This document shows, in pieces, positions 38,057 to 59,831 of a stretch of 61,467 nt of DNA. Below the pieces are notes generated by a model. The model did not search any database. It saw only the letters and a program-made list of their open reading frames with translations, and was not told the origin of the DNA. Position 1 is the stretch's first letter. The number at the start of each line of letters is the position of its first letter. A program made the position numbers and the translations under genes. The stretch is from Fundidesulfovibrio soli (GTDB lineage Bacteria; Desulfobacterota; Desulfovibrionia; Desulfovibrionales; Desulfovibrionaceae): contig NZ_JAKZKW010000025.1 in NCBI RefSeq assembly GCF_022808695.1, positions 1-61,467 on the forward strand, read 5' to 3'.

Positions 38057-38057
38057 G

Positions 38058-40665: not shown

Positions 40666-40910
40666 AGCCTTCGCCTGCAAGCTTGGTGGGAGAAGAACAA
40701 GATCCGGATCGACTCCATTCAGTCAGGCCAGCCGCGGCAAAGCGCTTGCCTGGAGCGAGGCAATCGTCCGGTGCGCCGCGGCTGGCTGGGGCGGCACCTG
40801 TTTGAGGACATGGAGGAGGTCGGAGACTACGCCGCCAGGTGGCTCTAAACATGCAGCAACGAAAGGCCCGACATGGGCATGGGCGGCATCACCCCGAGGT
40901 AAGAACTGGG
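40666..40910 (+). pseudogene. IS3-family transposase remnant (OrfB C terminus)
   Basis: The plus strand encodes IRIDSIQSGQPRQSACLERG and then NRPVRRGWLGRHLFEDMEEV with DYAARWL. This matches the end of IS3-family OrfB (consensus ..I.f.QPGkP.QNa.iER.NrtvR..wL..y.F.s.eE...f...W). A TAA then replaces the expected Trp codon, after which the frame continues with NERPDMGMGGITP, the NNERPN..LGG.TP ending. So this is a dead fragment with a nonsense mutation. Only the 3' part survives; the 625-bp gap 40341-40965 holds nothing else I can support. Confidence 0.85.
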
Positions 40911-40965
40911 GTCGGCCGCATAGTCGCTCCTTTTCGGACTGCCTGAAAGGGGGAGAGTTACCGGG

Positions 40966-41661: not shown

Positions 41662-41713
41662 GATCTTGAGGTGAGCGCGGAGGAGCCCAGCGCTCCGGGG
41701 GTCGTAGGCCTTG

Positions 41714-43701: not shown

Positions 43702-44673
43702 TCAGCTGTTCTGGGCGCTGGCGGGCTGCTCGACTTCTGGCTTCTGGCTTGGCGTCCAAAACGCCTCCCGCGCCACCTGTTCAAGCTCGGCGAACCGTTC
43801 CTGCGGCAGGGTCTTGTCGCCCATGGGGGCTTCCCTGTTCAGGAAGGTGTATTTCTGCGTGCCCAGCCGGTGGTAGGGCAGGACCTCGTAGCTGACGTTG
43901 GCGTGGCCCGACACGAACTCAGCGATGTTGCGGATGTCCGTTTCCATGTCGTTGAAACCGGGGATCACGGGGGTGCGCACGTGCACGGGCAGGTCCGGGA
44001 ACTCCGCCACAAGGCGCTGGAAGTTGTCCAGGATGCGTGTGTTGGGCGCCCCGGTGAAGGTCTTGTGCAGCTCGTTGTCCAGGCTCTTGATGTCGAACAT
44101 CACCGAATCGAGCAGCGGGGCCGCCTGGCGCAGCACCTCCCAGGGAACCTGGGCGCAGGTCTCCATGGAGGTGTTCAGGCGGCGTCGGCGGGCTTCGCGC
44201 AGCAGGGCCAGGGCGAACTCGGGCTGGGCCAGGGGCTCCCCGCCCGAAAGGGTGAGCCCGCCGCCCGAGCGCGTGTAGAACATGGCGTCCTGCTCCACCA
44301 CGCGCAGCACCTCGTCCACGCTCTTGCGCTGGCCGTAGGCGATCACGCCCGAGGCCGGGCAAGCCTCCACGCAGGGCCGCGCGCAGTCCTTGCAGGTTTC
44401 CCGGTTGAACACCGGCTTGTCATCCATCCGGGCGATGGCCTGGCTGGGGCAGGCCTTGAGGCAGCGCACGCACTGGGAAAAGCCCAGGCAGCGGCCGTCG
44501 TTGAAGGCCAGCTCCGCCTGGAAAGCCTGAGATTCCGGGTTGCTGCACCACAGGCAGGACAGGGGGCAGCCCTTGAAGAACACGATGGTGCGGATGCCCG
44601 GACCATCGTGAACGGAATACTTCTGGATGTTGAATATCGTTCCGCTCGTGTCCTTGTCCTGCTGGGTTGTCAT
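43702..44673 (-). CDS. islB: IslB, radical SAM activase of isethionate sulfite-lyase
   Basis: A 323-residue glycyl-radical-enzyme activating enzyme. After YSVHDGPGIRTIVFFKGCPLSC, the radical SAM motif GCPLSCLWCSNPE binds the catalytic [4Fe-4S]. A ferredoxin-like insert follows with CVRCLKACP and CKDCARPCVEACP, and then LTLSGGEPLAQ, the SAM-binding GGE motif. It installs the glycyl radical on Gly806 of IslA, encoded 109 bp upstream. The start ATG 44673 has no strong ribosome site, so lower expression than IslA is likely. The long hairpin between the two genes fits that. Confidence 0.95.
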   Translation of the reverse strand: MTTQQDKDTSGTIFNIQKYSVHDGPGIRTIVFFKGCPLSCLWCSNPESQAFQAELAFNDGRCLGFSQCVRCLKACPSQAIARMDDKPVFNRETCKDCARPCVEACPASGVIAYGQRKSVDEVLRVVEQDAMFYTRSGGGLTLSGGEPLAQPEFALALLREARRRRLNTSMETCAQVPWEVLRQAAPLLDSVMFDIKSLDNELHKTFTGAPNTRILDNFQRLVAEFPDLPVHVRTPVIPGFNDMETDIRNIAEFVSGHANVSYEVLPYHRLGTQKYTFLNREAPMGDKTLPQERFAELEQVAREAFWTPSQKPEVEQPASAQNS

Positions 44674-44782: not shown

Positions 44783-47278
44783 CTAGCAGGTCTCGTGCAC
44801 CGTGCGCGCGATCAGGTCGTTCTGCAGGTCCGGGGACAGGTCCACGAAGTAGGCGCTGTACCCGGCGATGCGCACGATGAGGTTGCGGTACTTTTCCGGG
44901 TCCTTCTGGGCTGCGATCAGGGTCTCGCGGTTGATCACGTTGAACTGCACGTGCCAGAGCTTCAGGTCGCAGAAGGTGCGGATGAAGGAGATCAGCTTGC
45001 GGGTGCCGTCGTCGCCCGCCAGGCACTTGGGCGTGAACTTGATGTTGAGCATCCTGGCCGCGCGCTCGCGGTAGCCGTAGTTCTTGGAGGTGTAGTTGGA
45101 GAGCAGCACCGCCGTGGGGCCGTTGACGTCCGCCCCGTGGGAGGCCGAGGAGCCGTCGGAGAGCGGCGTCCAGGAGCGGCGCCCGTTGGGCGTGGCGCTG
45201 ACCACCTTGCCGAAGGGCACATGGGAGGTGAAGGGCACGTAGCGCACGTCGTTGTTCATGCCCAGCTCCGGGGAGTACTTCTTGGCGTACTCCAGGGAGA
45301 GCAGGTCGATGTCCTTGGCGATGGAGTCGGCGAACTCGTCGTTGTTGCCGTAGCAGGGGGCGCTCTTGAGCAGGTGGCGCACATCCTCGCGGCCCTCGAA
45401 GTCGTTGTCCAGGGCTTCGAGCAGCTCGTCCATGCTCAGCTTACGGTCCTCGAAGACCAGCTTCTTGATGGCGGACAGGGAGTCCACCACGGTGCCGTAG
45501 CCGATGTATTCGAAGTAGCCGAAGTTCAGGCCCTCGGGGATCTGCGGGGTGTGCAGGTCCAGGCAGTGCTTCATGCACAGGTCGTGCAGCACGGAGCCCA
45601 TGGGCTGGGCGAAGTGCTGGGCGCGCAGGTTGATGATCACGTGCTGCTGGTAGAAGGCCGTCTTCAGGAACAGCTCATGCTGCCGGACGTAGGCGTTCCA
45701 GAACTCGTCCCAGGTCTTGAAGGAGCGCGGGTCGCCGGTCTCCACGCCCAGGGTCCTGTCTCCGTACTTCTTCATGCGCCCGTTGCGCAGGGCCATCTCC
45801 AGGGCTGCGGCGAAGTTGATGTAGGCTCCGCCCGAGGTGTAGGTGTCGCGGTTGGGCATTCGCGCCTCGGTGCAGCCGGACACGGCGTAGTCGTAGGCCT
45901 CCTCGAATGTCGCGCCCTTGGACACGTAGAGGGGGATGACCTCCTCGTCGTTGATCAGCTTGGGGAAGCCAGCGCCGTCCTTGATTGTCTCGGCCACTTC
46001 CCAGAGGTAGCGCTCGGGCGAGCGGGAGTGGATGCGCGCCGCAAGGTCCGGGTAGTGCAGCGGGAACTCGCGCTTGGACTTCAGGAACAGGTAGGTCAGC
46101 TCGTTGGTGGCGTCGCGCCCGTCGGGGGTCTGGCCTCCGATGGTCACGGCCTCCCAGTGGGCGTAGCCTTCGTTGAACGCGCCGCCCGTGGGGGAGATGT
46201 AGAGGTCGATGAACTGGGCCATGCCCACCCACATGCACTCCAGGAGCTCCACGGCCTTTTCCTCGGTGAGCAAACCCTCGGCCATGTCCTTCTGGTAGAA
46301 GGGGTAGAAATACTGGTCCATGCGCCCGTTGGAGATGATGGTGCCGGTCTTCTGCTCGATGCGCGAGAACATCTGGGTGAACCACTGGGACTGCACGGCC
46401 TCGTGGAAGGTGCGGGCCGGGTGCTCGGGCACGCGCTCGCAGATTTCGGCCATGGTCAGCAGCTCCTGCTTGCGCACGGGGTCGGACTCGGCGGCGGCGA
46501 CCTCGCGGGCCAGGGCCGCATGGCGGTTGGCCCAGTGCACGATGGCGTCGCACACGATGACCATGGCCTCCAGGAAGGGGCGCTTCTCCACATTGTCCAC
46601 GGGGCTCAGGGGGTCGAGCGTCTGGAGCTTGGCCAGGGCCTCGGCCTTGAGGCCGCCGAAACCGCGCTTGAGCACCTTGTCGTAGTCATGCACCCACTGG
46701 ATAGAGGAGCGGAAGGAGGCCGTCTCGTTGACCACGAAGCGGGAGGCCAGACCCTCGGGGTCGTCGTAGGTCAGCTTGTGCACGTCCGGGGGCAGGGCCT
46801 TGGCCAGCGCCTCGTGGAAGGTCTTGCCCTTCCAGTAGGGGGCGATCTCCTCGATGACCACCCTGGCGTCCTCCGGGGTGATGTAGGAGGGGGACTCCTT
46901 GCGCTTGGGCAGCTCCTCGATGGCCAGGCCCAGGAAGTCGCCGTCCAGTTCGGGGTAAAGGATGCCGTAGCGGCCCTGGCACCCGGCGCGCCCGGCCAGG
47001 AGCTGGTGGTCGTCGATGTAGACGGTCATGTTCTCGGCGATGTGCTTGAGAGCCTTGGCCCAGCGCAGCACCAGGGCCTGGCCCTCGGTCTGGCGCATGG
47101 ACTCGGTGAAGTACCGGGCCCTCTCCACGTCGATACGGGGCTTCAGGCCGTCGAAGCTCTCTAGGATGGTGAACACCCGGGGGTGGGTTGCGCGGAACTT
47201 GTCTTCCTTGCCTTCCATTCTGTCCTGGAGGCGCTGTTCGTGCGAGCTGTAGGCTTCGCAGCAGACGGGTTGCAACAT
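44783..47278 (-). CDS. islA: IslA, isethionate sulfite-lyase (glycyl radical enzyme)
   Basis: An 831-residue glycyl radical enzyme that cleaves isethionate to sulfite and acetaldehyde. Key residues described for Bilophila IslA are all present, each one position later: Arg190, Gln194 (189, 193), Trp375 (374), radical Cys469 in SGCTE (468), base Glu471 (470), Arg679 and Phe683 in RYVPF (678, 682). The glycyl loop [10 protein letters not shown] carries Gly806. No long N-terminal extension is seen, so targeting to the microcompartment must use another route or a short signal. ATG 47278 follows GGGAAG and gives the family length. A sigma-54 promoter lies ~100 bp upstream, and two palindromic activator sites farther up. 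Confidence 0.96.
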
Positions 47279-47373: not shown

Positions 47374-47387
47374 GCAACGCGTATGCC
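47374..47387 (-). promoter_or_regulatory. Sigma-54 promoter of islAB
   Basis: On the minus strand GGCATACGCGTTGC has GG and GC separated by exactly 10 bases, within CCGGCATACGCGTTGCTAT, close to the TGGCAC-N5-TTGCT consensus. The start would be near 47362, giving an ~84-nt leader. The activator gene and two upstream palindromes lie on the far side. The 498-bp gap to the activator stop holds no gene; AATCAA at 47533-47538 is a weak IHF candidate between palindromes and promoter. Confidence 0.8.
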
Positions 47388-47644
47388 GGAACCGCGACCA
47401 GGCGGGCGGCTGGAGGGCCGTTTTTGCTTGTTTGCCCTGTGATTGCAGATTGTTAAGTATCTGCACGATCTTTTCGGGGCATTTTTCTGGTCGGACGGGG
47501 GAGGGTGGGCCGAAGCGGGGTGGCCCAGGATTAATCAAATCATACCAAGACGTTAAGATGTTGGGGTGGATTGGGGGTGCCCCCCGCGCACGCGGAGCCC
47601 GGGCTGCTCCGGCGCGCCCCCAGGCGGGGTGACGCACCCGAGGT

Positions 47645-47660
47645 GCTGCATAATTGCAAC
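47645..47660. promoter_or_regulatory. Activator-binding palindrome, islA side (distal copy 1)
   Basis: GCTGCA-TAAT-TGCAAC matches the GTTGCA-N4-TGCAAC palindrome with one mismatch. It is about 270-285 bp upstream of the predicted islA start of transcription, a normal place for a sigma-54 enhancer. Confidence 0.7.
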
Positions 47661-47711
47661 CTCAGGAGGTCGTTGTTGGCGAATATAAACTATTCTAGCG
47701 TGTTAGAGAAT

Positions 47712-47727
47712 GTTGCAAAAATGCAAC
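47712..47727. promoter_or_regulatory. Activator-binding palindrome, islA side (copy 2)
   Basis: GTTGCA-AAAA-TGCAAC is a perfect 6-4-6 palindrome, 52 bp from the end of copy 1, or 67 bp centre to centre. It is one of three perfect copies in this locus. Confidence 0.8.
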
Positions 47728-47776
47728 ATGGTGCATTTATCAACCACTTCATTCTGTGACGCGCCAGGGGACCCGC

Positions 47777-49198
47777 TCAGCCTGGTTGCTCGTCGTTCAT
47801 GTGCAGCTTGCGGAAGATGGTGGTCCTGTTGACCCCGAACATCCTGGCCACCTTGGTCACGGAGCCGTGGGCCTCCAGGGCGTCCCGGATCAGGCCGCGC
47901 TCGATTTCGGCCATGATCTCCTTGAGGGGCCTGCCCGCGGCGTTGTCGATGTGGCAGGCCAGTGAGGCGGCCAGCACCGTGGGTTTCTGGTCGTCCAGCA
48001 TGGCTCCGGGCAGGTCGCCCAACTCCACCACGTCTTTCTCGCAGGTGATGACCAGGCTCTGGATCATGTTCTCCAGTTCGCGCACGTTGCCCGGCCAGCG
48101 GTAGTTCTTCATGGCCTCCTCCACGGCGTGGGACAGCACCAGGCGCTTGCGGTAGCGGGCCGTGAACCGCTCCAGGAAGGTGCGCGTCAGGGGCAGGATG
48201 TCCTCTGGGCGGTCGCGCAGGGGCGGGATGTTCAGCACGGCAACCCGCAGCCGGTAGTAGAGGTCGCTGCGGAAGGTGCCTTTGCGCACCTCCTCGGCCA
48301 GGTCCCGGTTGGTGGCGGCCACGATGCGCACGTCCACCTTCTTGGCCTGGGTGGAGCCCACCCGGACCACCTCCTGGTCCTGGAGCACGCGCAAAAGCTT
48401 GGACTGCATGATCTGGGGCAGCTCCCCGATCTCGTCCAGGAAGATGGTCCCTTTGTCGGCCAACTCGAAAAAGCCGATCTTGCCCTTGGTCAGCGCGCCT
48501 GAAAAGGCCCCGGGCACATAGCCGAACAGCTCGGACTCGATCAGGTTCTCGGGGATCGAGGCGCAGTCCACCTTGAAGAACGGCCTGTCGTGCCGGGAGG
48601 ACAGGCCGTGCATCTTACGCGCGACCACGTCCTTGCCGACGCCGGTTTCCCCGAGCAGCAGCACGGTGGCGTCGGTCGGCGCGATGCGCTGGATCTGTTC
48701 CACCAGGCGGGTCATCACCGCGCTCGTGACGACGATGGGCGTCTGCTGGGTCTTGGCTTTGTTGAAATAGTCGAAATTCTTATGGTATTTTTCGATGAGT
48801 TCGCGCTGCTCCGCGATCTGGTCCTTCATTTGCGACATCATGGTGATGTCGCGGGCGTAGGTGACCACCAGGGTGACGGCTCCCTCCTCGTCGAAGATCG
48901 GATAGCCGCTGAGCACCATGCGCCGGTCGTGCATGTTGGTCTGCACGCGGGTCACGGGCTTGCCCGTGGCCACGATCTCCGGGTTCAGGGCCGTGTTGTA
49001 CACCCCGCTCTTCTTGAGCTCGCGCACGTTGCGCCCGAGGATGTCCTCGCGTTTGAGGCCCGTGAGCTTCTCGTACATGGTGTTGACCTTGAGGGTCACC
49101 CCGTCCCTGTCCGTGATGTAGACCCCATCCCCCAGAGTATCGAGAATGCTGTCCATGTGCGCGCTCAGCAGCGTGTCTATGAAGTCGTCCTTGCTCAT
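47777..49198 (-). CDS. Sigma-54-dependent activator with PAS sensor
   Basis: A 473-residue enhancer-binding protein. A PAS domain (about 12-118, ILDTLGDGVYITDRDGVTLKVN) is followed by a short coiled segment (120-150) and the AAA+ domain: Walker A GETGVGKD (183-190), the sigma-54 contact loop GAFSGA (230-235, Ser where Thr is usual), Walker B FLDEIGEL (253-260), and the Arg-finger region SDLYYRLRVAVL. A Fis-type helix-turn-helix ends the protein (VTKVARMFGVNRTTIFRKL). It lies between islA and the transporter/BMC operon; both arms have sigma-54 promoters and the same palindromes, so it is the likely activator of both. The inducer may be the sulfonate itself or a product sensed by the PAS domain. 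Confidence 0.94.
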   Translation of the reverse strand: MSKDDFIDTLLSAHMDSILDTLGDGVYITDRDGVTLKVNTMYEKLTGLKREDILGRNVRELKKSGVYNTALNPEIVATGKPVTRVQTNMHDRRMVLSGYPIFDEEGAVTLVVTYARDITMMSQMKDQIAEQRELIEKYHKNFDYFNKAKTQQTPIVVTSAVMTRLVEQIQRIAPTDATVLLLGETGVGKDVVARKMHGLSSRHDRPFFKVDCASIPENLIESELFGYVPGAFSGALTKGKIGFFELADKGTIFLDEIGELPQIMQSKLLRVLQDQEVVRVGSTQAKKVDVRIVAATNRDLAEEVRKGTFRSDLYYRLRVAVLNIPPLRDRPEDILPLTRTFLERFTARYRKRLVLSHAVEEAMKNYRWPGNVRELENMIQSLVITCEKDVVELGDLPGAMLDDQKPTVLAASLACHIDNAAGRPLKEIMAEIERGLIRDALEAHGSVTKVARMFGVNRTTIFRKLHMNDEQPG

Positions 49199-49412
49199 GT
49201 CGGGCGTCCCTCGCGATCTATGGCGAAAACGGTTGCGGACCCGTAACGCGCATTGGGTCCTTGCAAGGCCCGTGCGCCGGGGAACGGGCGGGCCGGAGGG
49301 CCGCCTGGCTTTTCAGCGGCCTGGAATCACGTGATTAAAATCGCGCAGCTTTTGGATGGGCCCTTCTCCCGGTTGGGACACTCACCCAAGGCCGTTGCAG
49401 TATCGCATCATT

Positions 49413-49428
49413 GTTGCACTTGTGCAAC
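49413..49428. promoter_or_regulatory. Activator-binding palindrome, transporter side (copy 1)
   Basis: GTTGCA-CTTG-TGCAAC is a perfect 6-4-6 palindrome about 220 bp upstream of the predicted transporter transcription start. A degenerate copy (GTTGCA-GTAT-CGCATC) lies directly before it at 49394-49409. The intergenic gap 49199-49824 (626 bp) holds no gene. Confidence 0.8.
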
Positions 49429-49494
49429 CTGGCGCAGTCGCGAGGACCGGGCTTGTGAAAAATGCTACAATAAGAAAAGTACTGAACAGCAGCC

Positions 49495-49510
49495 GTTGCA
49501 AGTATGCAAC
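49495..49510. promoter_or_regulatory. Activator-binding palindrome, transporter side (copy 2)
   Basis: GTTGCA-AGTA-TGCAAC is a perfect 6-4-6 palindrome about 140 bp upstream of the predicted start. The 82-bp centre spacing from copy 1 is close to eight helical turns. Confidence 0.8.
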
Positions 49511-49618
49511 ACCTGGGCCTGAGGGGCTCATAGGCTTATCCAAAACTAGGGGGCGGAGTGCCCGGCAATCCAGCATCCGTGCGCATTGAGTCGAGATTCC
49601 TGAACTGTTGTGGGAGTT

Positions 49619-49632
49619 GGTATCAGATTTGC
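49619..49632 (+). promoter_or_regulatory. Sigma-54 promoter of the transporter/BMC operon
   Basis: GGTATCAGATTTGC, within TTGGTATCAGATTTGCT, has GG and GC separated by exactly 10 bases. Transcription should begin near 49644, about 180 bases before the first start codon. No other -24/-12 match was seen in this gap. Confidence 0.8.
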
Positions 49633-49824: not shown

Positions 49825-50937
49825 ATGCACGTGTATCGTCGTATCTTCGGCTTTTTGGCTTTGCTCATGTTTCTGGTATCCACCCCGTCTTACGCGGAGA
49901 AGTTCGTCGTAGGCTACCAGCCCTACGACACAATCTCTTACCAGGCGATCATCAACTCCGAGCTCGGCCTTTGGAAGCAGTACGTGCCCAAGGGCACCGA
50001 AATCGAGTTCCAGGGCGCGCTGCAGGGCACGGTGGTGGCCAACAACATGTTGGCCGACAAGGCCCACATCGGCTACATGAGCGTGATGCCCGCCACCATC
50101 CTCTGCTCCAAGCCGGAGCAGGCCGAGATCAAGATGGTCGCCACCGCGGGCATGTCCGAAGGCACCCGCTGCTCCCTGGTGCTGGTGCGCAAGGACGCCC
50201 CCCAGTTCAAGAGCAACGAGGAGCTGGCCCGCTGGCTGGACGGCAAGGTCGTGGCCGCGCCCAAGGGCAGCGCCTCGGACCAATACCTGCTCAAGTTCTT
50301 CGAGAAGTACAACGTCAAGCCCGCTGAGTATCTGAACCAGTCCATCGAGGTCATCGGCACCAACTTCCGCATCGGCAAGCTCGACGCCGCCTCCCTGTGG
50401 GAGCCCACGCTCTCCCGCGTGGCCACGGACGTGGGCGAAGGCGTCGCGCGCATCGTGGCCGACGGCCGCGCCTGCGACAACCCGGACCTGGGCATGGTGG
50501 TGATGCGCAAGGACTTCATGGAGAAGCACCCCGAAGTGGCCAAGGGCTACCTGCGCTCCGAACTGGAAGCCCAGCGCTATCTGCTCGACCCCAAGAACTG
50601 GTCGAACGTCATCGACATGGTCTCCAAGCACGCCACCGGCGTGCCCAAGCGGGTGCTCTGGTACTCGATCTACGGCCAGGTTCCCTCCGACTCCAAGGAG
50701 CCGGTGCGCGAGTGGAAGTCCTTCTACTTCAACGAGCGCGAGAAGCTGAACATCGCCGAAGTGGCCCCCTTCCTGCTCAAGGACAAGCGCATCAAGGAAG
50801 TCCCCAAGCCCGGCACCGTGGATGATTCCCTGGCCCGGCAGGTGTTCAAGGAAGCCGGATACACCCCGGTGAGCGCCACCGTCACCCTGGGAGACATCAA
50901 GGGCGCCCCCGCCAGCGCCTGCCCCTTCAAGGATTAG
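49825..50937 (+). CDS. ABC transporter substrate-binding protein (sulfonate/taurine-like)
   Basis: A 370-residue periplasmic binding protein of the SsuA/TauA/NMT1-like class. The signal peptide is MHVYRRIFGFLALLMFLVSTPSYA. The fold starts KFVVGYQPYDTISYQAIINS, and LADKAHIGYMSVMPATILC and GKVVAAPKGSASDQYLLKFFEKYNV are typical ligand-pocket strands. It is larger than TauA (~320) because of a C-terminal extension ending in ACPFKD. It is the only binding protein for the two permeases and two ATPases that follow. Given islA next door, isethionate or another C2 sulfonate is the likely ligand. ATG 49825 follows AAGGAGG. The 162-bp gap to the next gene shows no other feature. Confidence 0.88.
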   Translation: MHVYRRIFGFLALLMFLVSTPSYAEKFVVGYQPYDTISYQAIINSELGLWKQYVPKGTEIEFQGALQGTVVANNMLADKAHIGYMSVMPATILCSKPEQAEIKMVATAGMSEGTRCSLVLVRKDAPQFKSNEELARWLDGKVVAAPKGSASDQYLLKFFEKYNVKPAEYLNQSIEVIGTNFRIGKLDAASLWEPTLSRVATDVGEGVARIVADGRACDNPDLGMVVMRKDFMEKHPEVAKGYLRSELEAQRYLLDPKNWSNVIDMVSKHATGVPKRVLWYSIYGQVPSDSKEPVREWKSFYFNEREKLNIAEVAPFLLKDKRIKEVPKPGTVDDSLARQVFKEAGYTPVSATVTLGDIKGAPASACPFKD

Positions 50938-51099
50938 CCCCTGGGCCGCGAGGCCCTGACATGTCCGCCCCGGTGCGCGCGGCCCGAGCCGCGCCCACCA
51001 GGGCAGGGCCACCGTCTCTTGCGGCGCGAGCCACAGCGGCCACGGCACAGGAAACAGCCCCGGACCGATTCCGGGCAACGACAAGGTGGAGGCTCTTCC

Positions 51100-52002
51100 G
51101 TGACCAACGCAACAGCTACAACAGCGGCAACCCCGACCACTGTGACCGCGCCGGCGGAGCAGGGCGGCGCGCCGAGCTCCTGGCAGATCACCCTGTTCAG
51201 CCTCAAGCAGTGGCTCAAGAGCCCGAGCCCGTATCTGAACGTCCTGGGCATCGTCGGCTTCATCGTTTTCTGGTACCTGGCCACGGAGCGCTTCAAGCTG
51301 CCCTGGTTCAACAAGCTGCCCGGACCGGTGGCCGTCTTCCAGGAGTGGGTCTCCCGCGATCCGTCCTACGGCATCTCCATCTACTCCCCGGAGTACTACC
51401 ACCACATCTTCACCAGCATCTGGCGCGTGCTCCAGGCCTTCATCCTGGCCACGGTGCTGGGCGTGCCCATCGGGCTGTTCATGGGCTGGAAGAAGACCTT
51501 CAAGGACTACACCTTCCCCCTGCTGGAGACCCTGCGCCCCATCCCCATGCTGGCCTGGGTGCCGCTCTCCATCCTGATGTGGCCGGGGCGCGAGGCCTCG
51601 ATCATCTTCCTGACCTTCCTGGGCTCCTTCTTCGCCACGGTGCTGAACACCCTGCTGGGCGTGGAGTCCATCGACGAGGTCTACTTCCGGGCGGCCAGCT
51701 CGCTCGGGGCCAAGCCGCGCCAGGTATTCTTCAAGGTCATCCTGCCGGGCTCGCTGCCCTTCATCTTCACGGGCCTGCAGATCAGCATGGGCTTCGCCTG
51801 GTTCTCCCTGGTGGCCGGCGAGATGCTGGCCGGCGAATACGGGCTCGGCTACCTGATCTGGAACTCGTTCATCATGGTGCAGTACCCGGTCATCGTCATC
51901 GCCATGGTCACCCTGGGGGTGATCGGCGGATTCTCCAGCTCGCTCATCCGCATGGTGGGCGACAGGCTGATGCAATGGAAAGTCAGGGAGGCCGCGCGAT
52001 GA
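51100..52002 (+). CDS. ABC transporter permease 1 (SsuC/TauC-like)
   Basis: A 300-residue permease with about six membrane segments. The cytoplasmic coupling loop FRAASSLGAKPRQVFFKVILPGSLPFI is the EAA motif. The Thr/Ala-rich first 25 residues are probably cytoplasmic. GTG 51100 is chosen because GGAGG lies upstream and the family begins after it. Its stop overlaps the start of ATPase 1 (ATGA), showing coupling. Confidence 0.92.
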   Translation: MTNATATTAATPTTVTAPAEQGGAPSSWQITLFSLKQWLKSPSPYLNVLGIVGFIVFWYLATERFKLPWFNKLPGPVAVFQEWVSRDPSYGISIYSPEYYHHIFTSIWRVLQAFILATVLGVPIGLFMGWKKTFKDYTFPLLETLRPIPMLAWVPLSILMWPGREASIIFLTFLGSFFATVLNTLLGVESIDEVYFRAASSLGAKPRQVFFKVILPGSLPFIFTGLQISMGFAWFSLVAGEMLAGEYGLGYLIWNSFIMVQYPVIVIAMVTLGVIGGFSSSLIRMVGDRLMQWKVREAAR

Positions 52003-52847
52003 ACACCGCCGAAAAGATTGCGACGGATGAGCGGGGGCGCATCAGCATCCGCAACGTGACCAAGGTGTACGACCCCGACGGGGCCAAGGTCCTGGCCGTG
52101 GACAACTGCTCCATGGAGATCGAGGCGGGCGAGTTCTGCGTGGTCGTCGGGCCTTCGGGCTGCGGCAAGACCACCCTTCTGAACGCCATCGCCGGGTTCC
52201 ACGGCATCAGCTCCGGCGAGATCCTCCTGGACGGCGAGCTGCTCTGCAGCGGCCAGAAGCGGGCCCAGCCCGGCTCGGACAGGATCGTGGTCTTTCAGAA
52301 CGGGGCGCTCTTCCCCTGGTACACCGTGCTCGAGAACGTGACCTTCGGCCCGGTGGTCCAGGGCGGCGTGAACGAGAAGGACGCCAAGGACAAGGCCCGT
52401 GCCATGCTCGGCCAGATGGGCCTGGAGGGCATCGAGAACAACTACCCCAGCGAGATCTCCTCCGGCATGCGCCGGCGCGTGGAGATCGCCCGGGCCATGA
52501 TGAACGACCCCAGTGTCCTGCTGCTGGACGAGCCCTTCCGGGCCATGGACGCCCTGACCAAGACGGTGGTCCACCAGTTCCTGCTCGACGTCTACGACAA
52601 GAGCAAGAAGACCGTGTTCTTCATCACCCACGATCTGGAGGAGGCCATCTTCCTGGGCTCCAAGGTCTACATCATGACCACCCGCCCGGCGCAGATCAAG
52701 ACCGTCCTCAACGTGGACATCCCCCGTCCCCGCGACTTCCGCGCTCTCTCCTCGGCCACCTACATCAGGCTGAAGAAGGAGTGCATCGAGGCCGTGCACG
52801 AGGAGGCCCTCAAGGCCTTCAAGGCCGGCGAGCGGGAAATGGCCTGA
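51999..52847 (+). CDS. ABC transporter ATPase 1 (degenerate signature)
   Basis: A 282-residue nucleotide-binding subunit of the SsuB/TauB group. Walker A GPSGCGKTT, Q-loop VVFQNGALFPW, Walker B LLLDEP and H-loop ITHDLEEA (His211) are normal. The signature is ISSGMRRR (residues 153-157 ISSGM) in place of LSGGM. ATPase 2 has the complementary defect, so together they would form one good and one poor ATP site. It overlaps permease 1 by 4 bp. Confidence 0.93.
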   Translation: MNTAEKIATDERGRISIRNVTKVYDPDGAKVLAVDNCSMEIEAGEFCVVVGPSGCGKTTLLNAIAGFHGISSGEILLDGELLCSGQKRAQPGSDRIVVFQNGALFPWYTVLENVTFGPVVQGGVNEKDAKDKARAMLGQMGLEGIENNYPSEISSGMRRRVEIARAMMNDPSVLLLDEPFRAMDALTKTVVHQFLLDVYDKSKKTVFFITHDLEEAIFLGSKVYIMTTRPAQIKTVLNVDIPRPRDFRALSSATYIRLKKECIEAVHEEALKAFKAGEREMA

Positions 52848-52881
52848 CGGATCGGTCCTTTTCACATCGGAGACAGTCGCC

Positions 52882-53688
52882 ATGGCAACAGCCAGCAGCC
52901 AGCAGTTCAATTGGGTGAAATTCAGGAAGAGTGTCTTCAGCCTGACCACGGGGCGAGGCATCGCGGCCATCATCATCTTCACGGTGCTCTGGGAAATGTG
53001 TTCGCGGCTCGGCGTGCCGATCATCGGCAACGTGCCCCCGCCCTCCGCGGTCCTGGCGGCCCTGGGCAAGCAACTGGTCAGCCCGGCCTACTGGATGTCC
53101 TGGCTGGACAGCTTCGTGCGCATCCTCACCGGCTTCGCCATCGCCCAGGTGCTTGGCATCCCGCTGGGGCTGCTGCTGGGCGTGAACCGCACCGCGCGCG
53201 AACTGATCTACCCGATCTTCGAGATCATGCGCCCCATACCTCCCCTGGCCTGGGTGCCCATCGCGGTGATCTTCTGGCCCACCACGGAGCTCTCCATGAT
53301 GTTCGTGACCTTCCTGGGGGCCTTCTTCACCGTGGTGCTGAACATCGTTGGCGGCGCCAGCAGCATCGACCTGCGCTACATCCGCGCGGCCCATTCCCTG
53401 GGCTCCTCGCGCTCGGACATCTTCTGGCGGGTGATGCTCCCGGCCACCCTGCCCAGCATCGTGGTGGGCATGACCGTGGGCATGGGCATCACCTGGGCGG
53501 TGGTGGTGGCGGCGGAGATGATCGCCAGCCGCTCGGGCCTGGGCTTCCTGACCTGGCGGGCCTACGTGGCGGGCGAATATCCCCTGATCATCATCGGCAT
53601 GATGAGCATCGGCATCGCGGGCTACGTGTCCTCGGCCCTCATCCGCATGATCGGCAGCCGCCTGACCCCCTGGCTGCGGACCTTCTAA
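52882..53688 (+). CDS. ABC transporter permease 2 (SsuC/TauC-like)
   Basis: A 268-residue permease with about six membrane segments and the coupling loop IRAAHSLGSSRSDIFWRVMLPATLPSI. It is related to permease 1 in layout but clearly different in sequence, so it is a distinct subunit, not a recent copy. ATG 52882 follows GGAGA. Confidence 0.92.
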   Translation: MATASSQQFNWVKFRKSVFSLTTGRGIAAIIIFTVLWEMCSRLGVPIIGNVPPPSAVLAALGKQLVSPAYWMSWLDSFVRILTGFAIAQVLGIPLGLLLGVNRTARELIYPIFEIMRPIPPLAWVPIAVIFWPTTELSMMFVTFLGAFFTVVLNIVGGASSIDLRYIRAAHSLGSSRSDIFWRVMLPATLPSIVVGMTVGMGITWAVVVAAEMIASRSGLGFLTWRAYVAGEYPLIIIGMMSIGIAGYVSSALIRMIGSRLTPWLRTF

Positions 53689-53700
53689 GGAGCACCATCC

Positions 53701-54615
53701 ATGAGCCAGACGCAACTGACCCCCGGCATGGGCGCCGGAGAGATGACCGTAACCGGCGTGGCCAAGGGCTTCGGGCTCGGGCCGCTGCACAAGCAGGTGC
53801 TCTGCGACTGCTCCTTCACCCTGGAGAAGGGCAAGCTCACGGTGCTCATCGGCCCCTCGGGCTGCGGCAAGAGCACCCTGGTCAACGTGCTGGCGGGCTA
53901 CGAGGCCCCCGACGCCGGAAGCGTCCTCCTGGACGGCAAGCCCGTCTGCGAGCCGGGCCCCGACCGCCTGGTGGTCTTCCAGGAGACGGCCCTGTTCCCC
54001 TGGATGACCACCTACGAGAACGTGAGCTACGGCCCCCGCGTGCAACGCAAGATGCCCGAGGCGGAGTTCCGGCAGGAGACCATGAAGCTCCTGGATCTGG
54101 TGGGCCTGCGGGATTTCAAGGACAAGTACCCCTCGCAGCTCTCGGGCGGCATGCAGCGCCGGGCGGAGCTGGTGCGGGCCATGATCAACCAGCCCAAGGT
54201 CATGCTCATGGACGAGCCCTTCCGGGGCCTGGACGCCATGACCAGGGCCCTCATGCAGGAATACTACGTGCGCCTGTTCGAGGAGCATCGGGGCACCAAC
54301 CTCTTCGTCACCTCCGAGCTGGAGGAGGCCATCTTCCTGGCCGACAAGCTGCTCATCCTGACCAACAGGCCCGCGCGGGTGAAGAAGGTCATCGAGGTGG
54401 ACCTGCCCAGGCCGCGCGAGTTCGCCATGCTCACCTCCAAGGCCTACCAGGACTGCAAGATGGAGGCGCTGGAGCTTCTGCACGAGGAGGCCATGAAGTC
54501 CTTCGCGGCGGGGGCGGTCAACGCGGCCGACTTCCTGGAGGCCTGCTCCCAGATGGGGCAGGACCAGGCCGTGCCCTCCTGCAAGGAAGGCGCGGGCGGG
54601 GAAACCAGGCAGTAG
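53701..54615 (+). CDS. ABC transporter ATPase 2 (H-loop His replaced)
   Basis: A 304-residue nucleotide-binding subunit. Walker A GPSGCGKST, Q-loop VVFQETALFPW, signature LSGGMQRR (147-151) and Walker B LMDEP are intact, but the H-loop reads VTSELEEA with Ser205 where ATPase 1 has His. Hydrolysis at its own site should be poor. The C-terminal ~45 residues extend beyond the usual end (SQMGQDQAVPSCKEG). ATG 53701 follows AAGGAG, 12 bp after permease 2. A 90-bp gap with small GC-rich repeats precedes the BMC genes; no promoter was seen there, so read-through is likely. Confidence 0.93.
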   Translation: MSQTQLTPGMGAGEMTVTGVAKGFGLGPLHKQVLCDCSFTLEKGKLTVLIGPSGCGKSTLVNVLAGYEAPDAGSVLLDGKPVCEPGPDRLVVFQETALFPWMTTYENVSYGPRVQRKMPEAEFRQETMKLLDLVGLRDFKDKYPSQLSGGMQRRAELVRAMINQPKVMLMDEPFRGLDAMTRALMQEYYVRLFEEHRGTNLFVTSELEEAIFLADKLLILTNRPARVKKVIEVDLPRPREFAMLTSKAYQDCKMEALELLHEEAMKSFAAGAVNAADFLEACSQMGQDQAVPSCKEGAGGETRQ

Positions 54616-54704: not shown

Positions 54705-55445
54705 ATGGCGAAATGCATCATCACCGAGGCCGACATCCTCCAGGCTGCCGCGACCGGCCGGAAACTCCTTGTCGCGCAGGGCTGCGAGTGCATCGTCACG
54801 GACCAGGCCCGCGACCGGGCCCTGGAGCTTGGCGTGGCCCTGCCCGGAGAGTGCGACGCCAGAGCCCCGGCCGCTTCGGCCGCGCAGGCTGCGGCTCCGG
54901 GCGTGGCCGAGGCTTCGTCCGGCGCGGGCATGGGTCCTCTGGTCAGCCAGCTGGTGCGGGCTGTGTGCGCCAAGCTGCCCCCGGGTTCGGACGCGGCGGA
55001 GGTGGAGCGGCTGGTGCGCGGCGCGGTGGCCGCGCGCATGCCGTCCCATCCAGGCGGGGCGGGCGGGGCGGCCGCTCCCGAACCGGCCGGGCAGAGCGCG
55101 GCCACATTCTGCGAGGGTGGGGTCCGCTTCATTGAGGCCGCCAGGCTCGTCCGGCAGGGCGGCAAGGCGGCGGACGTTCCCGGCCAGGCCCTGCTGGCCG
55201 AGGCCCTGGGCTCCCCGGGCGAGGCCGCGCTGGCCGCGGGCTATCTGGCCTGGGAGCGGGCCTCGTTCAGCCGCGAGGTGGACGCGGCCGAGCTGGGCGT
55301 GGTCATCGAGGGCGAGCTGCACCTGACAGTTGGCGGCAGAACCATCATCGGCAAGCCCGGGGACATGGTCTATCTGCCCAAGGGCGCGAAAGTCCTCTAC
55401 AGCACGCCGTCGCGGGTGATGATGGCCTGCGTCAACGCGCACTGA
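54705..55445 (+). CDS. eutQ: EutQ-like protein (acetate kinase/cupin)
   Basis: A 246-residue EutQ homolog. Residues 1-45 ([20 protein letters not shown] ... [12 protein letters not shown]) match the N-terminal segment found in several microcompartment proteins. An Ala/Gly-rich linker follows, and the C-terminal cupin (about 185-246) has [20 protein letters not shown] and [16 protein letters not shown]. EutQ of Salmonella has acetate kinase activity and helps shell assembly. As no AckA is in the window, EutQ could make ATP from acetyl phosphate here. ATG 54705 follows GGGAGG. Confidence 0.87.
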
Positions 55446-55462
55446 CAGGCCGGGCCGCAACC

Positions 55463-56464
55463 ATGAACATCCTCGACCGCTGCATCCGCGCCTGCCGGGA
55501 GAACCCCGGGGTGGTCGCCTTCCCGGACAGCCTGGACCAGCGCGTGCTGGCCGCCGCCGCCCGCCTGAAGGAGGAGGGCCTGGCCGAGCCGGTGCTCATG
55601 CACTCCCCCTTCGCGGTGCGCGAGAAGCTGCGCAAGGCCCGCCTGAACCCCGCCGGCCTGACCGTGGTGGACCACGCCGGTCCCGAACTGCTGCGGCGCA
55701 ACACCGAGGAATTCCTGGCAATCCGTGAGCAAAAGGGCAAGCCCGTGAGCCCCGAGGTCGCGGAGGCGGCCATGCGCTGCCCCCTGGCCGCGTCGGCCAT
55801 GATGGTGCGCCGGGGCGAGGTGGAGGTCGGCGTGGGCGGGAACCTCTCCTCCACGGCGGACATGCTCCGGGCCGGGCTGGCCATCCTGCCCAGAAAACCC
55901 GGCATCAAGACCGTCTCCAGCTTTTTCCTGATGATCTCGCCGGACGGCGAGCGCCGCTTCGTCTTCGCGGACTGCGCCGTGGTGCCCGAGCCCACGGCCG
56001 AGATCCTGGCTGACATCGCCGTATCCTCGGCGGGCATGGCCCGCACGCTGCTCGGCGAAGACCCCAGGGTGGCCATGCTCTCCTTCTCCACCAAGGGCAG
56101 CGCCGAGCATCCCCGCGCGGCCATGGTGCGCGAGGCCGTTGAGCTGGCCAGCCAGCGCGCCCCGGACGTGGCCATCGACGGCGAGCTGCAGTTCGACGCG
56201 GCCTCCCTGCCCGAGGTGGCGGCCCTCAAGGCCCCGGGAAGCATCCTGGGCGGGCGGGCCAACGTGTTCGTGTTCCCGTCCCTGGAGGCCGGGAACATTG
56301 GCTACAAGCTGGTGGAGCGGCTGGCGGGCTATACCGCGCTGGGCCCGTTCCTCCAGGGATTCGAGGGCGGCTGGCACGACCTCTCCCGAGGGTGCAGCGC
56401 CAAGGACATCTACACTGTCGCGGTGATCGGGCTGTGCCTGCGCAGAGGGACCCTGCCCCAATAG
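55463..56464 (+). CDS. eutD: Phosphate acetyltransferase (EutD/Pta)
   Basis: A 333-residue PTA_PTB-family enzyme, the usual single-domain length, converting acetyl-CoA and phosphate to acetyl phosphate and CoA. Marks are [20 protein letters not shown], the [18 protein letters not shown] region, [29 protein letters not shown] and [10 protein letters not shown]. It takes the place of PduL used by many microcompartments. It starts 17 bp after eutQ with a weak ribosome site. Confidence 0.94.
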
Positions 56465-56512
56465 GGAACGCGGAAGGGCTGCGCCAAACCAGTTGCATCA
56501 AGGAGGCTTCGC

Positions 56513-56797
56513 ATGGATTCGATGGACGCATTGGGCATGATCGAGACACGGGGGCTGACCGCGCTCATCGAGGCGGCGGACGCCATGGTCAAGGCGGCGA
56601 GGGTGCAGTTGGTGGGCTACCAGCAGATCGGCGGCGGCCTGGTGACCGCGCTGGTGCGCGGCGACGTGGCCGCCTGCAAGGCAGCCACCGACGCCGGGGC
56701 CGCGGCGGCCAAGCGCGTGGGCGAGGTGATCGCGGTGCATGTGATCCCGCGTCCCCACGGCGACCTGGAAGACATCTTCCCCCTGAAGCGCAAATAG
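56513..56797 (+). CDS. eutM: BMC hexameric shell protein, EutM-like (copy 1)
   Basis: A 94-residue single-domain BMC shell protein, very close to Eut[41 protein letters not shown], and [12 protein letters not shown]. Hexamers tile the shell facets; the loop QIGGG lines the central pore for small molecules. ATG 56513 follows AAGGAGG; an internal ATG at 56522 aligns with the start of copy 2. About 88% identical to the protein at 59206. Confidence 0.96.
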
Positions 56798-56818
56798 CGG
56801 GCCGGAGCGGGAGACAGC

Positions 56819-58177
56819 ATGGGCATGCCACCAACCAGCGGCGTCATGGGCACGCTGCTCGACGCGGTCCGCGGGGCCGGTGTCGTGGGCGAGGGCGGGG
56901 CCGGGTTTCCGGCCCACGTCAAGTACGACACGCGCGCGGGGGTGGTGATCGCCAACGGCTGCGAATGTGAGCCCCTGCTCTACACGGACCAGCACCTGAT
57001 GCGCACCCGCGCCGGGGAGATAGCCCGGGCGCTGCGGGAGGTCATGGCCGCCGTGGGCGCGGAGCGCGGCGTGGTGGCCATCAAGGCCAAGTACGCGGAC
57101 GTGGCCCGCGCCCTGGAAGGCCCCTGCTCCGGGGCGGGGCTGGAGCTGGCCCTGCTGGATAACTTCTACCCCGCCGGGGACGAGCACATCCTGGTGCACG
57201 AGGTCACGGGCAGGACCATCCCGCCCCTGGGCCTGCCCAAGGACGTGGACGCCCTGGTGGCCAATGTGGGCACGCTGGCCTCGGTGAGCCAGGCCCTGGA
57301 CGGGCTGCCGGTCACGCGCAAGGCGCTCACGGTTACGGGCGAGGTGGCTCGGCCCTGCGTGCTGGAAGCGCCGCTCGGAACCAGCCTGGCCGAGATCCTG
57401 GACTTTTGCGGCGGCCCGGCCACGGGCGACCCCGTGTTCCTGCTGGGCGGGCCCATGATGGGCCGCTTCCTGGAGGACCGGGGGGCCCTGGCCGAGGCGG
57501 TGGTCACCAAAACCTCGGGCGGGCTGATCGTGCTGCCGCGCGGCCACTTCCTGCACGAGGCCGCCACGCTCACGCCCGAGGTCATGCGCAGGCGGGCGGC
57601 CACGGCCTGCATCCAGTGCCGCTACTGCACGGACCTCTGCCCCCGCTATCTGGTGGGCCACTCCTTCGAGACCCACCGGGTGATGAAGGCCTTCGGCGCG
57701 GGTCTGGAGTCGGCCCAGGGCGCGGAGCAGGCCCTGCTCTGCTGCGAGTGCGGGGTCTGCGAGTTGTTCAGCTGTCCCATGCGGCTCTCGCCAAGGCGCA
57801 TCAACGCCCTGTTCAAGGCGGCCTTCCGGGAGCGCGGCGTGAGCTATCAGGGCCCGCGCGAGGTCCGCCCGGCGCAGGCCGCTCTGCGCCCCTACCGCAA
57901 GATACCGGCCTCGCGCCTGGCCTCCAAGACCGGCCTGGCCCCCTACATGGACATTCACCCGGAGTTCGCGGGCCTGTTCACGCCCGGCGAGGTGCGCATC
58001 CCCCTGCGCCAGCACATCGGCGCACCGGCCGTGGCCGTGGTCGCGCCCGGCGACAGGGTGGCCGTGGGCGACCTGCTGGGCGAGATCCCCGAGGGCGCGC
58101 TGGGCGCCCGCATCCACGCCTCCATCGGCGGGGTGGTCACGGAAACCGGCACATCCGTCGTGGTCAAAGGAGCCTGA
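56819..58177 (+). CDS. pduS: PduS-like RnfC-domain Fe-S flavoprotein
   Basis: A 452-residue protein of the PduS/RnfC-like family. The N-terminal half has GVVGEGGAGFPAHVKYDTRA and VIANGCECEPLLYTDQHLM (flavin/NADH-binding RnfC region). Two [4Fe-4S] motifs follow: CIQCRYCTDLCPRY and CCECGVCELFSCP. The C-terminal part has a SLBB/biotinyl-like region. In Pdu compartments PduS reduces cobalamin; here the lyase is a radical enzyme without B12, so the role is more likely NADH reoxidation or electron passage across the shell. It ends 1 bp before the PduT-like gene. Confidence 0.92.
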   Translation: MGMPPTSGVMGTLLDAVRGAGVVGEGGAGFPAHVKYDTRAGVVIANGCECEPLLYTDQHLMRTRAGEIARALREVMAAVGAERGVVAIKAKYADVARALEGPCSGAGLELALLDNFYPAGDEHILVHEVTGRTIPPLGLPKDVDALVANVGTLASVSQALDGLPVTRKALTVTGEVARPCVLEAPLGTSLAEILDFCGGPATGDPVFLLGGPMMGRFLEDRGALAEAVVTKTSGGLIVLPRGHFLHEAATLTPEVMRRRAATACIQCRYCTDLCPRYLVGHSFETHRVMKAFGAGLESAQGAEQALLCCECGVCELFSCPMRLSPRRINALFKAAFRERGVSYQGPREVRPAQAALRPYRKIPASRLASKTGLAPYMDIHPEFAGLFTPGEVRIPLRQHIGAPAVAVVAPGDRVAVGDLLGEIPEGALGARIHASIGGVVTETGTSVVVKGA

Positions 58178-58178
58178 A

Positions 58179-58736
58179 GTGAAGCCGAATCTCCAGGCCG
58201 TGGGCATGATCGAGTTCAACTCCATCGCTGCGGGCATCGAGGCGGCCGACGCCATGCTCAAGGCGGCCAGCGTCTCGCCGCTTTTGATGAAGACCATCTG
58301 CCCGGGCAAGTTCGTGGCCTCGGTGCACGCGGACGTGGCCTCGGTGCGGGCCTCGGTGGAGGCCGGGCTGGCCATGGGCGCGGACTCGGCCGTGGACCAC
58401 TTCGTGATCCCGAACATCGCCCCGGAGGTGGTCCTGGCCCTGTCCTGCTCCGTGGAGATCGCCCACGGCACCGCCCTGGGGATCATCGAGACCTTTTCGG
58501 CGGCCTCGGCCATCGTGGCGGCGGACACCGCCGTGAAGGCCGCCGGGGTGCACCTGCTGGAGGTGCGCCTGGCCATGGGCCTGGGCGGCAAGGCCCTGTG
58601 TCTGTTCACCGGCTCCGTGGCCGAGGTGCAGGCCTCCGCCTCCGCCGGGTCGGCGGCCGTGTCGGCTTCGGGGCTGCTGGTGCGCAGCGTGGTCATCCCC
58701 GGGCTGTCCCCCGAACTTCTGCCCTACATCCTGTGA
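58179..58736 (+). CDS. pduT: Tandem-domain BMC-T shell protein, PduT-like
   Basis: A 185-residue protein with two BMC domains (about 6-95 and 98-183) that forms pseudo-hexameric trimers. It shares TICPGKF and the overall pattern of PduT. The Cys that binds the [4Fe-4S] cluster in the pore of PduT (Cys108, after ETWSVAA) is Ala111 here in ETFSAASA. The remaining Cys (41, 90, 141) are elsewhere. The start is GTG 58179 with AAAGGAG. Adjacent to the PduS-like gene, as in Pdu loci. Confidence 0.9.
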   Translation: MKPNLQAVGMIEFNSIAAGIEAADAMLKAASVSPLLMKTICPGKFVASVHADVASVRASVEAGLAMGADSAVDHFVIPNIAPEVVLALSCSVEIAHGTALGIIETFSAASAIVAADTAVKAAGVHLLEVRLAMGLGGKALCLFTGSVAEVQASASAGSAAVSASGLLVRSVVIPGLSPELLPYIL

Positions 58737-58747
58737 GGAGGCTGCCA

Positions 58748-59146
58748 GTGGCATCAGATGATCGCGAGAGCTTGAACGGCGACGCCCTGGGTTTCGTGGA
58801 GACCTTCGGCCTGATCGCCGCCGTGGAGGTGGCCGACGCAATGGGCAAGGCGGCCAGGGTGCGGGTGAAGTCCGTGTGCAACGCGGACGCCGGGCTGCTG
58901 TGCGTGGTCTGCGAGGGCGACCTCGCGGCCTGCAGGGCGGCGGTGGACGCGGGCCGGGCCTCCGCCGAGCGCCTGGGGGGCTACGTGACCAGCAACCTCA
59001 TCGCCCGGCCCTGGGACGACACCGGGGAGCTCATCACCCGGCATGTGGGCTCCATGTTCAGGCAGGCCGCGAAGCAGGCATCATCCGGGAAAACCGCGAA
59101 GCAGGCCCCGGCCGTGAAGGGCAAACCCGGGGGCAAGGCGCGCTAG
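58748..59146 (+). CDS. EutK-like BMC shell protein with basic C-terminal tail
   Basis: A 132-residue protein with one BMC domain (about 10-98) most like Eut[29 protein letters not shown] and [12 protein letters not shown]. EutK has a C-terminal helix-turn-helix domain; here there is only a Lys/Ala/Gly-rich tail ([13 protein letters not shown] ... KGKPGGKAR). GTG 58748 is chosen because GAGGAGG lies directly upstream and the BMC domain begins shortly after. Confidence 0.85.
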
Positions 59147-59205
59147 GGCCGGGGACCGCCCGGAGTCCCTTCCGCAGTGACCGCAACCCAGCAAGGAGAA
59201 CGACC

Positions 59206-59481
59206 ATGGACGCACTGGGCATGATCGAGACCAAGGGCATGACCGCGCTCATCGAAGCGGCCGACGCCATGACCAAGGCCGCCCGCGTGGAGCTGGTGGG
59301 CTACGAGCGCATCGGCGGCGGCCTGGTGACCGCGCTGGTGCGCGGCGACGTGGCCGCCTGCAAGGCCGCCACGGACGCAGGGGCCGCCGCCGCGCAGCGC
59401 GTGGGCGAGGTGGTCGCCGTGCACGTGATCCCGCGTCCCCACGGCGACCTCGAGGGCATCTTCCCCATAACCCGGAAATAA
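59206..59481 (+). CDS. eutM: BMC hexameric shell protein, EutM-like (copy 2)
   Basis: A 91-residue EutM-like hexamer former ([20 protein letters not shown]; pore loop RIGGG in place of QIGGG). It is about 88% identical to the protein at 56513, and the charged Arg next to the pore may tune selectivity for anions. ATG 59206 follows AAGGAG. Confidence 0.96.
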
Positions 59482-59525
59482 CCAGGCAGGCCGCCGGGCA
59501 CGTGCCGGCGCGCGGGAGAAATCGC

Positions 59526-59810
59526 ATGGAACTGGGCAAGGTGGTCGGACAGGTGGTGTCCACGGTGCGCGATCCGGGTTTGCCGAACCTGACGTTCCTG
59601 CTGGTGGACGTGATGGACGCCCAGGGCAAGGTCACCCGGCCCGCCCAGGTGGCGGCTGACGTCCTGGGGGCGGGCGAGGGCGAGGTGGTGCTGCTGGTCC
59701 GGGGCAGTTCGGCCCGGATGGTGGTGGACGCCAGAACGCCGCTGGACCTCTCGGTGATCGGCATCGTGGACCAGGTCTGCTCGCGCGAGACAATGTTCTA
59801 CAAAAAGTAA
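59526..59810 (+). CDS. eutN: BMC pentameric vertex protein (EutN/CcmL family)
   Basis: A 94-residue EutN/CcmL protein that forms the pentamers capping shell vertices: MELGKVVGQVVSTVRDPGL, the central AADVLGAGEGEVVLLVRGSSAR, and IVDQV near the C terminus. Only one vertex gene is seen in the window. ATG 59526 follows GGGAGAA. Confidence 0.95.
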   Translation: MELGKVVGQVVSTVRDPGLPNLTFLLVDVMDAQGKVTRPAQVAADVLGAGEGEVVLLVRGSSARMVVDARTPLDLSVIGIVDQVCSRETMFYKK

Positions 59811-59831
59811 TCCCAGCTGAAGGCGGTGGCC

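Follow-up and report, generated by a model that had tools for sequence, protein, structure and literature searches.

The window analyzed here, the whole 61,467-nucleotide contig NZ_JAKZKW010000025.1 of Fundidesulfovibrio soli, carries islA and islB, which encode a predicted isethionate sulfite-lyase and its activase, a gene for a putative σ54-dependent activator, and a row of ATP-binding cassette (ABC) transporter and bacterial microcompartment (BMC) genes. The activator gene lies between islAB and the transporter genes, and both intergenic stretches that flank it contain copies of a 16-base-pair (bp) palindrome, GTTGCA-N4-TGCAAC, upstream of predicted −24/−12 promoter elements (Table 1). A first-pass annotation made from the sequence alone had listed three perfect palindromes and one near-perfect palindrome, divided between the islA side and the transporter side, and a degenerate fifth site. 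All five were found in place, the fifth with two mismatches, and all fall within the two intergenic stretches.

Table 1. Genes, palindromes and predicted promoter elements of the isl region in window coordinates; invariant bases are those shared by the four aligned genomes.
Feature	Coordinates	Strand	Sequence	Remarks
islB, glycyl radical enzyme activase	43702..44673	−		
islA, predicted isethionate sulfite-lyase (glycyl radical enzyme)	44783..47278	−		
Predicted −24/−12 element of islAB	47374..47387	−	CGGCATACGCGTTGCT (reads GGCATACGCGTTGC)	extended consensus; 8/8 specified bases invariant
Palindrome, one mismatch	47645..47660		GCTGCATAATTGCAAC	islA side; 10/12 specified bases invariant
Perfect palindrome	47712..47727		GTTGCAAAAATGCAAC	islA side, 67 bp from the 47645 site; 8/12 invariant
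Activator gene, 473 amino acids, DVU2827/IslR-like	47777..49198	−		PAS domain, σ54-interaction AAA+ domain with GAFSGA loop, Fis-type helix-turn-helix (HTH)
Degenerate fifth palindrome, two mismatches	49394..49409		GTTGCAGTATCGCATC	19 bp from the 49413 site, first half of the doublet; 10/12 invariant
Perfect palindrome	49413..49428		GTTGCACTTGTGCAAC	transporter side; 9/12 invariant
Perfect palindrome	49495..49510		GTTGCAAGTATGCAAC	transporter side, 82 bp from the 49413 site; only 6/12 invariant
Predicted −24/−12 element of the transporter/microcompartment operon	49619..49632	+	TGGTATCAGATTTGCT (reads GGTATCAGATTTGC)	extended consensus; 8/8 invariant
ABC transporter genes	49825..54615	+		sulfonate/taurine-type binding protein at 49825-50937, then two permeases and two ATPases in the order permease, ATPase, permease, ATPase
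Microcompartment genes	54705..61250	+		EutQ-like, PTA, PduS-like, BMC shell protein, coenzyme A-type aldehyde dehydrogenase; row ends at the contig end

The genome of the same organism (3,996,106 bases in 41 contigs) contains three perfect sites, and all three are in these two intergenic regions. One of its two one-mismatch sites is also there; the other (C5:36999) lies inside a 119-amino-acid open reading frame (ORF), in a stretch with short ORFs only. At lower stringency the pattern is at chance level: the window holds 21 matches with up to three mismatches (22.7 expected), and the genome holds 98 matches per strand with up to two mismatches versus 119 for the reversed pattern. Counts at two or three mismatches were therefore rejected as evidence, and only near-perfect, clustered and conserved sites carry weight.

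The intergenic regions were aligned with those of three other genomes, G135 (F. agrisoli, with an IslA 98% identical to that of the window), G150 and G005. Since the G135 sequence is nearly identical to that of the window, the divergence comes mostly from G150 and G005. The fifth site, with 10 of its 12 specified bases invariant, is among the best conserved of the five. In the activator leader, a three-mismatch site at 49232 was dropped, as neither G150 nor G005 preserves it. Among the background columns, 84 of 451 for the islA element and 99 of 564 for the transporter-side element are invariant, versus every specified base of both −24/−12 elements.

The extended consensus of σ54 promoters is TGGCACG-N4-TTGCW. 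Using our own weighted consensus modelled on it (maximum score 14.9), a score of at least 12.7 was reached at only 5 of 122,904 window positions, both −24/−12 elements among them. The first-pass annotation had based these elements on exact GG-N10-GC spacing. That spacing occurs 1609 times in the window versus 1591 expected and so is no evidence by itself; the elements stand on the extended consensus and on the cross-species footprint instead. For a σ54 promoter of the activator gene itself, the best minus-strand scores were 12.4, overlapping the 49495 palindrome, and 11.9, and no claim is made.

To follow the palindrome in other genomes, an IslA scan of genome contigs was carried out, and the best 80 of the 192 stretches that it confirmed were retained. 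The islA start was placed in 79 of these 80 loci (L113 excepted), and 48 of the 79 bear an activator ortholog (tblastn E ≤1e-100) within the retrieved flank. Within 700 bp upstream of islA in the activator-bearing loci, 78 sites with up to two mismatches were found in 38 of the 48, compared with 1.95 in shuffled sequences, none in a coding control and one for the reversed pattern. When the spacer was varied from 0 to 20, each value except 4 gave 1–11 sites. The first-pass annotation had named related genomes, near islA or the activator gene, as the place to check the motif, and lack of conservation in orthologous loci as what would speak against it; the motif recurs there.

A search for exact dyads in the same upstream regions gave TGCA-N4-TGCA as the commonest 4-mer dyad (22/48 loci). 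Among longer exact dyads, GTTGCA with a gap of 4 was found in 3/48 loci, and GCAAA with gap 0 (10/48), TGATGC with gap 6 (5/48) and GATGCA with gap 4 (4/48) rank equal to or above GTTGC and GTTGCA. Unrelated dyads reach up to 44/48 loci in the coding control because the coding sequence itself is shared; exact dyad counts are thus only partly useful, and the argument rests on the spacing scan and the shuffles. Pooling the 78 sites gives G(T/A)(T/C)GCA-WWWW-TGC(A/G)(A/T)C, a consensus that is partly circular since the sites were picked by likeness to the pattern. In 38 of the 48 loci the best σ54-like element within 400 bp exceeds the 95% shuffle level, and in 12 the nearest palindrome starts 90–101 bp before such an element.

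The sites also share an arrangement. Distances between pairs of sites with up to two mismatches in the 79 loci peak at 19–20, 52–54 and 65–67 bp, while with the reversed pattern no two sites fall within 200 bp of each other. Doublets 18–21 bp apart are present in 16/79 loci, and in five (L043, L053, L099, L101 and L108) a third site follows 62–68 bp beyond the doublet. The 49394/49413 pair of the window is such a doublet, with the third site 82 bp on.

Sites and activator tend to occur together. When orthologs in the retrieved flank or in a whole-genome search (at least 47% identity, reaching into the PAS domain) were counted, 51 of the 66 genomes or loci with an ortholog had sites, versus 4 of the 13 without (Fisher p = 0.0019, a value to be read with the criterion having been fixed after the table was seen, the sequences being related, two loci, L042 and L043, belonging to one genome, and many assemblies being drafts). 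The 66 take in the 48 loci and L103, with an activator fragment at a contig edge; counting L103 otherwise strengthens the contrast. Four genomes of the same genus (G137, G183, G202 and G300) have no lyase match at 1e-60, no activator ortholog (full-length matches are 37–38% identical, with none in the 66%-complete G300) and no perfect palindrome, their scattered one-mismatch sites numbering 3, 4, 0 and 4. In five Firmicutes/Nitrospiraceae loci (L100, L101, L104, L105 and L108, titled Desulfosporosinus, Desulforamulus, Sporomusaceae and Nitrospiraceae) the sites cluster around the activator gene itself: 18 lie within 400 bp of it (4,000 bp in all) versus 6 elsewhere (101,161 bp). For the remaining 43 activator loci the usual position is at islA.

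Three further observations concern this distribution. Desulfosediminicola flagellatus has two islA copies in one genome: at L043 the activator gene is downstream of islA and the palindromes are ~3.5 kb upstream of islA, and at L042 palindromes lie directly upstream of islA with no activator gene in the retrieved stretch, which suggests control in trans. Seven loci titled Telmatospirillum, Rhodospirillaceae, Planctomycetaceae and Acetobacteraceae (L056, L063, L071, L073, L075, L081 and L097) encode IslA relatives of 76–78% identity, with no palindrome in the 700 bp upstream and no activator ortholog in the genome search; their IslA has perhaps been transferred and come under other control. Finally, G150 encodes a second activator, 50% identical (C8:259368-260729), with a one-mismatch palindrome at 260997, ~270 bp upstream, and may have a paralogous regulon.

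The domains of the activator match its predicted role. PF00158 gave 228.5 bits, HTH_50 and HTH_8 scored above cut-off, and rpoN is present in the same genome (TIGR02395, 462.3 bits, cut-off 277.35). A recognition-helix motif, R(T/S)T-x-FRK, is found in 45 of the 46 activator rows that reach the helix, the exception being L104.

The lyase was compared with solved structures and scored 1581 bits with 5ymr, 1459 with 7kq3, 1244 with 6lon, which we take to be HpsG, and 538 with the best CutC (choline lyase). 5YMR is IseG, made from D. vulgaris Hildenborough according to the available text of PMC6453916. The best NCBIfam model, NF048011 (sulfopropanediol dehydratase HpsG, 1584 bits, cut-off 1000), counts against the IslA name; assignment to HpsG was rejected, the solved isethionate sulfite-lyases being closer. 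By sequence, the enzyme is closer to characterized IslA/IseG than to HpsG or CutC, and isethionate catalysis is predicted. Since NF048011 scores far above its cut-off on an isethionate-lyase-type enzyme, automatic annotation may call IslA a sulfopropanediol dehydratase. Past islB, the minus strand at 36224-43382 encodes an aldehyde:ferredoxin oxidoreductase, a multi-4Fe-4S protein, and ThiF-family, histidine phosphatase, XdhC-type and AMP-binding proteins; this aldehyde oxidoreductase cluster adjoins an acetaldehyde-producing pathway.

On the other side of the activator gene, order and strand suggest that the transporter and microcompartment genes form one operon. All ABC transporter family matches are below the curated NCBIfam cut-offs. 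The microcompartment row is cut by the contig end (61250-61467), and the F. agrisoli relative L115 gives its continuation: the ORFs tested there encode three BMC-domain proteins, an EutN-type shell protein, a PduS-like protein, an aldehyde dehydrogenase and an actin-fold ATPase, which we read as EutJ-like, with an amidohydrolase and a TauE/SafE exporter closing the row. The neighborhood of the window is not unique, as matches near islA in the 80 loci include BMC shell proteins (16/80), an ABC binding protein (9/80) and an amidohydrolase (44/80). L036 and L037 (the latter Desulfovibrio sp. A2) have the same ABC transporter downstream of a doublet spaced by 19 bp and a TGGTATCGTACTTGCT element that resembles TGGTATCAGATTTGCT of the window, and their amidohydrolase gene has its own CGGCATGCCTCTTGCT element. 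In the Desulfosporosinus loci L100 and L101, amidohydrolase, PduS-like and BMC genes are transcribed away from the orientation of the activator gene and are preceded by such sites and a TGGTA-type element.

We conclude that the palindromes are, with high probability, the upstream activating sequences of a σ54 regulon for isethionate respiration, with a DVU2827/IslR-type activator encoded between them that is predicted to bind them. The first-pass interpretation holds in part: conservation, co-occurrence, joint absence in sister genomes and architecture give good comparative support to its single regulon with a defined operator, to which the neighboring activator would bind. In the scheme that we infer for binding, looping and induction, activator dimers would bind GTTGCA-N4-TGCAAC sites via the Fis-type HTH, and the bound array would reach σ54-RNA polymerase at the −24/−12 elements by DNA looping. 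The PAS domain would sense a signal, probably isethionate or a related sulfonate, upon which the activator would remodel σ54-RNA polymerase. This would turn on islAB, whose products split the C–S bond to give acetaldehyde and sulfite, together with the operon on the other side, which would serve sulfonate uptake and acetaldehyde handling in the microcompartment.

Several observations weigh against this interpretation. The strict form of the palindrome is rare elsewhere: with up to one mismatch there are 40 sites in 22/48 loci, and perfect sites number 4 in 3/48. Ten of the 48 activator-bearing loci have no site within 700 bp of islA, and L087 and L112, whose activators are the least similar (43–44% identity), have none in the locus. 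Outside the five Firmicutes/Nitrospiraceae loci, sites are found within 400 bp of the activator gene in only 4 of the 43 activator loci (13 sites in 32,748 bp). The 31 loci without a local activator divide into 17 with a site upstream of islA and 14 with none; the whole-genome search found an ortholog in 13 of the 17 site-bearing and 4 of the 14 site-less genomes, and none in the remaining 4 site-bearing ones. At the locus itself, the 49495 site is degraded in G005, the islA element reads CGGCAT instead of TGGCAC, and the islA-side sites are 257–339 bp above the −24 element, beyond the 90–101 bp seen for the nearest site in 12 of the 48 related loci. At the F. agrisoli locus L035 these distances are 272 and 339 bp, as in the window.

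The alternative that survives best, though we consider it unlikely, is that the regulon is real and responds to a different signal, be it another sulfonate, a metabolite of taurine or acetaldehyde stress, with isethionate as only one of its substrates. The below-cut-off matches of the binding protein to sulfonate/taurine models and the HpsG model that leads the NCBIfam matches of the lyase would fit such a regulon, but the lyase is nearest to the two solved isethionate sulfite-lyases. The available text of Peck et al. 2019 (PMC6386719) also argues for isethionate: a D. alaskensis G20 mutant in islR, a predicted regulator gene, fails with isethionate and grows with sulfite, and isethionate raises the levels of the islAB proteins.

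It is quite improbable that the palindromes are operators of another transcription factor, such as a repressor acting on these genes, with the neighboring activator binding elsewhere. In favor of this reading are the 39 of the 43 activator loci outside the five Firmicutes/Nitrospiraceae ones with no site within 400 bp of the activator gene, the four site-bearing genomes without an ortholog and the divergent, site-less activators of L087 and L112. Against it, L101, L105 and L108 have their sites after the activator gene and none in the 700 bp before islA; enhancer-like distances from σ54 elements, joint absence of site and ortholog in sister genomes and the genome-level co-occurrence also point to the activator. 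Chance palindromes can be all but dismissed: the relaxed counts in window and genome are what chance predicts, but the perfect sites are all clustered, their footprint is conserved and they recur at orthologous loci.

Beyond the activating role of the sites, we lean, by a small margin, towards a broader picture. One σ54 activator and one palindrome, often as a 19–20 bp doublet with a third site ~62–82 bp on, would govern the whole isethionate route: uptake, C–S lyase, microcompartment, conversion of acetaldehyde to acetate and possibly sulfite export. The pair would be conserved between Desulfovibrionaceae on the one hand and Desulfosporosinus, Desulforamulus, Sporomusaceae and Nitrospiraceae on the other, and the palindrome would therefore be a DNA tag for isethionate genes, among them those of a new ABC-type isethionate importer.

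Isethionate and taurine respiration leads to hydrogen sulfide in guts and sediments, and little in print was found on its control. The kind of system is already known, and the regulator family had been predicted in outline. This analysis adds the explicit site, the array geometry, the occurrence in Firmicutes and Nitrospiraceae, and the ABC/microcompartment operon as a predicted part of the regulon. Two published pieces, a computed 'pyruvate' regulon and the genetics of islR, are joined here through a concrete candidate site, and the transporter and microcompartment operon comes under the same predicted control. In the available texts of the literature found, the site is not spelled out and these facts are not joined.

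Fis-type enhancer-binding proteins of the PrdR, NorR and NtrC families have dyad activator sites upstream of −24/−12 promoters. The activator shares with them the AAA+/HTH layout and an N-terminal sensor part; by model it is a member of none, with 404.7 bits for PrdR (cut-off 795), 338.5 for NorR (cut-off 476) and 293.8 for NtrC (cut-off 558.6). Its neighborhood, GAFSGA loop and HTH fit the DVU2827/IslR group, the Hildenborough strain being outside the compared loci and genomes. D. piger ATCC 29098 (L068) has a 50%-identical activator near islA and a single site with two mismatches.

According to the available text of Kazakov et al. 2015 (PMC4641369), DVU2827 of D. vulgaris Hildenborough is a one-component σ54 activator with a GAFSGA loop, near a 'PFL' (pyruvate formate-lyase) operon; binding sites and σ54 promoters were predicted before PFL and a neighboring amidohydrolase gene, and the predicted sites extend to five Desulfovibrionales genomes. 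The likeness to the window, judged by description, is in the σ54 activator with GAFSGA and the lyase-type operon. That regulon was read as one of pyruvate metabolism with a C4-dicarboxylate transporter, whereas the window combines an isethionate-lyase-type enzyme with an ABC transporter and microcompartment genes, and the L115 row ends in an amidohydrolase and a TauE-type exporter. The 'pyruvate formate-lyase' beside DVU2827 would be an isethionate lyase of this type, and the transporter neighborhood described suggests that DVU2824 is the IseG of PMC6453916. The word 'regulator' is not mentioned in the available text of PMC12125255.

The Bilophila wadsworthia cluster (PMC8667426; Burrichter et al. 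2021) resembles the window in islAB, an acetylating acetaldehyde dehydrogenase, shell proteins and a PAS-domain transcriptional regulator; unlike here, no regulatory site is described in the available text. The same text gives islAB clusters of two Desulfovibrio strains without co-encoded shell proteins, in contrast to the BMC-T matches near islA in 16/80 of our loci. IslR of D. alaskensis G20 is a putative ortholog of the window activator; the part of PMC6386719 available names no domains, site or sigma factor for it, and the need for islR in isethionate growth, as reported there, is as expected of a required activator.

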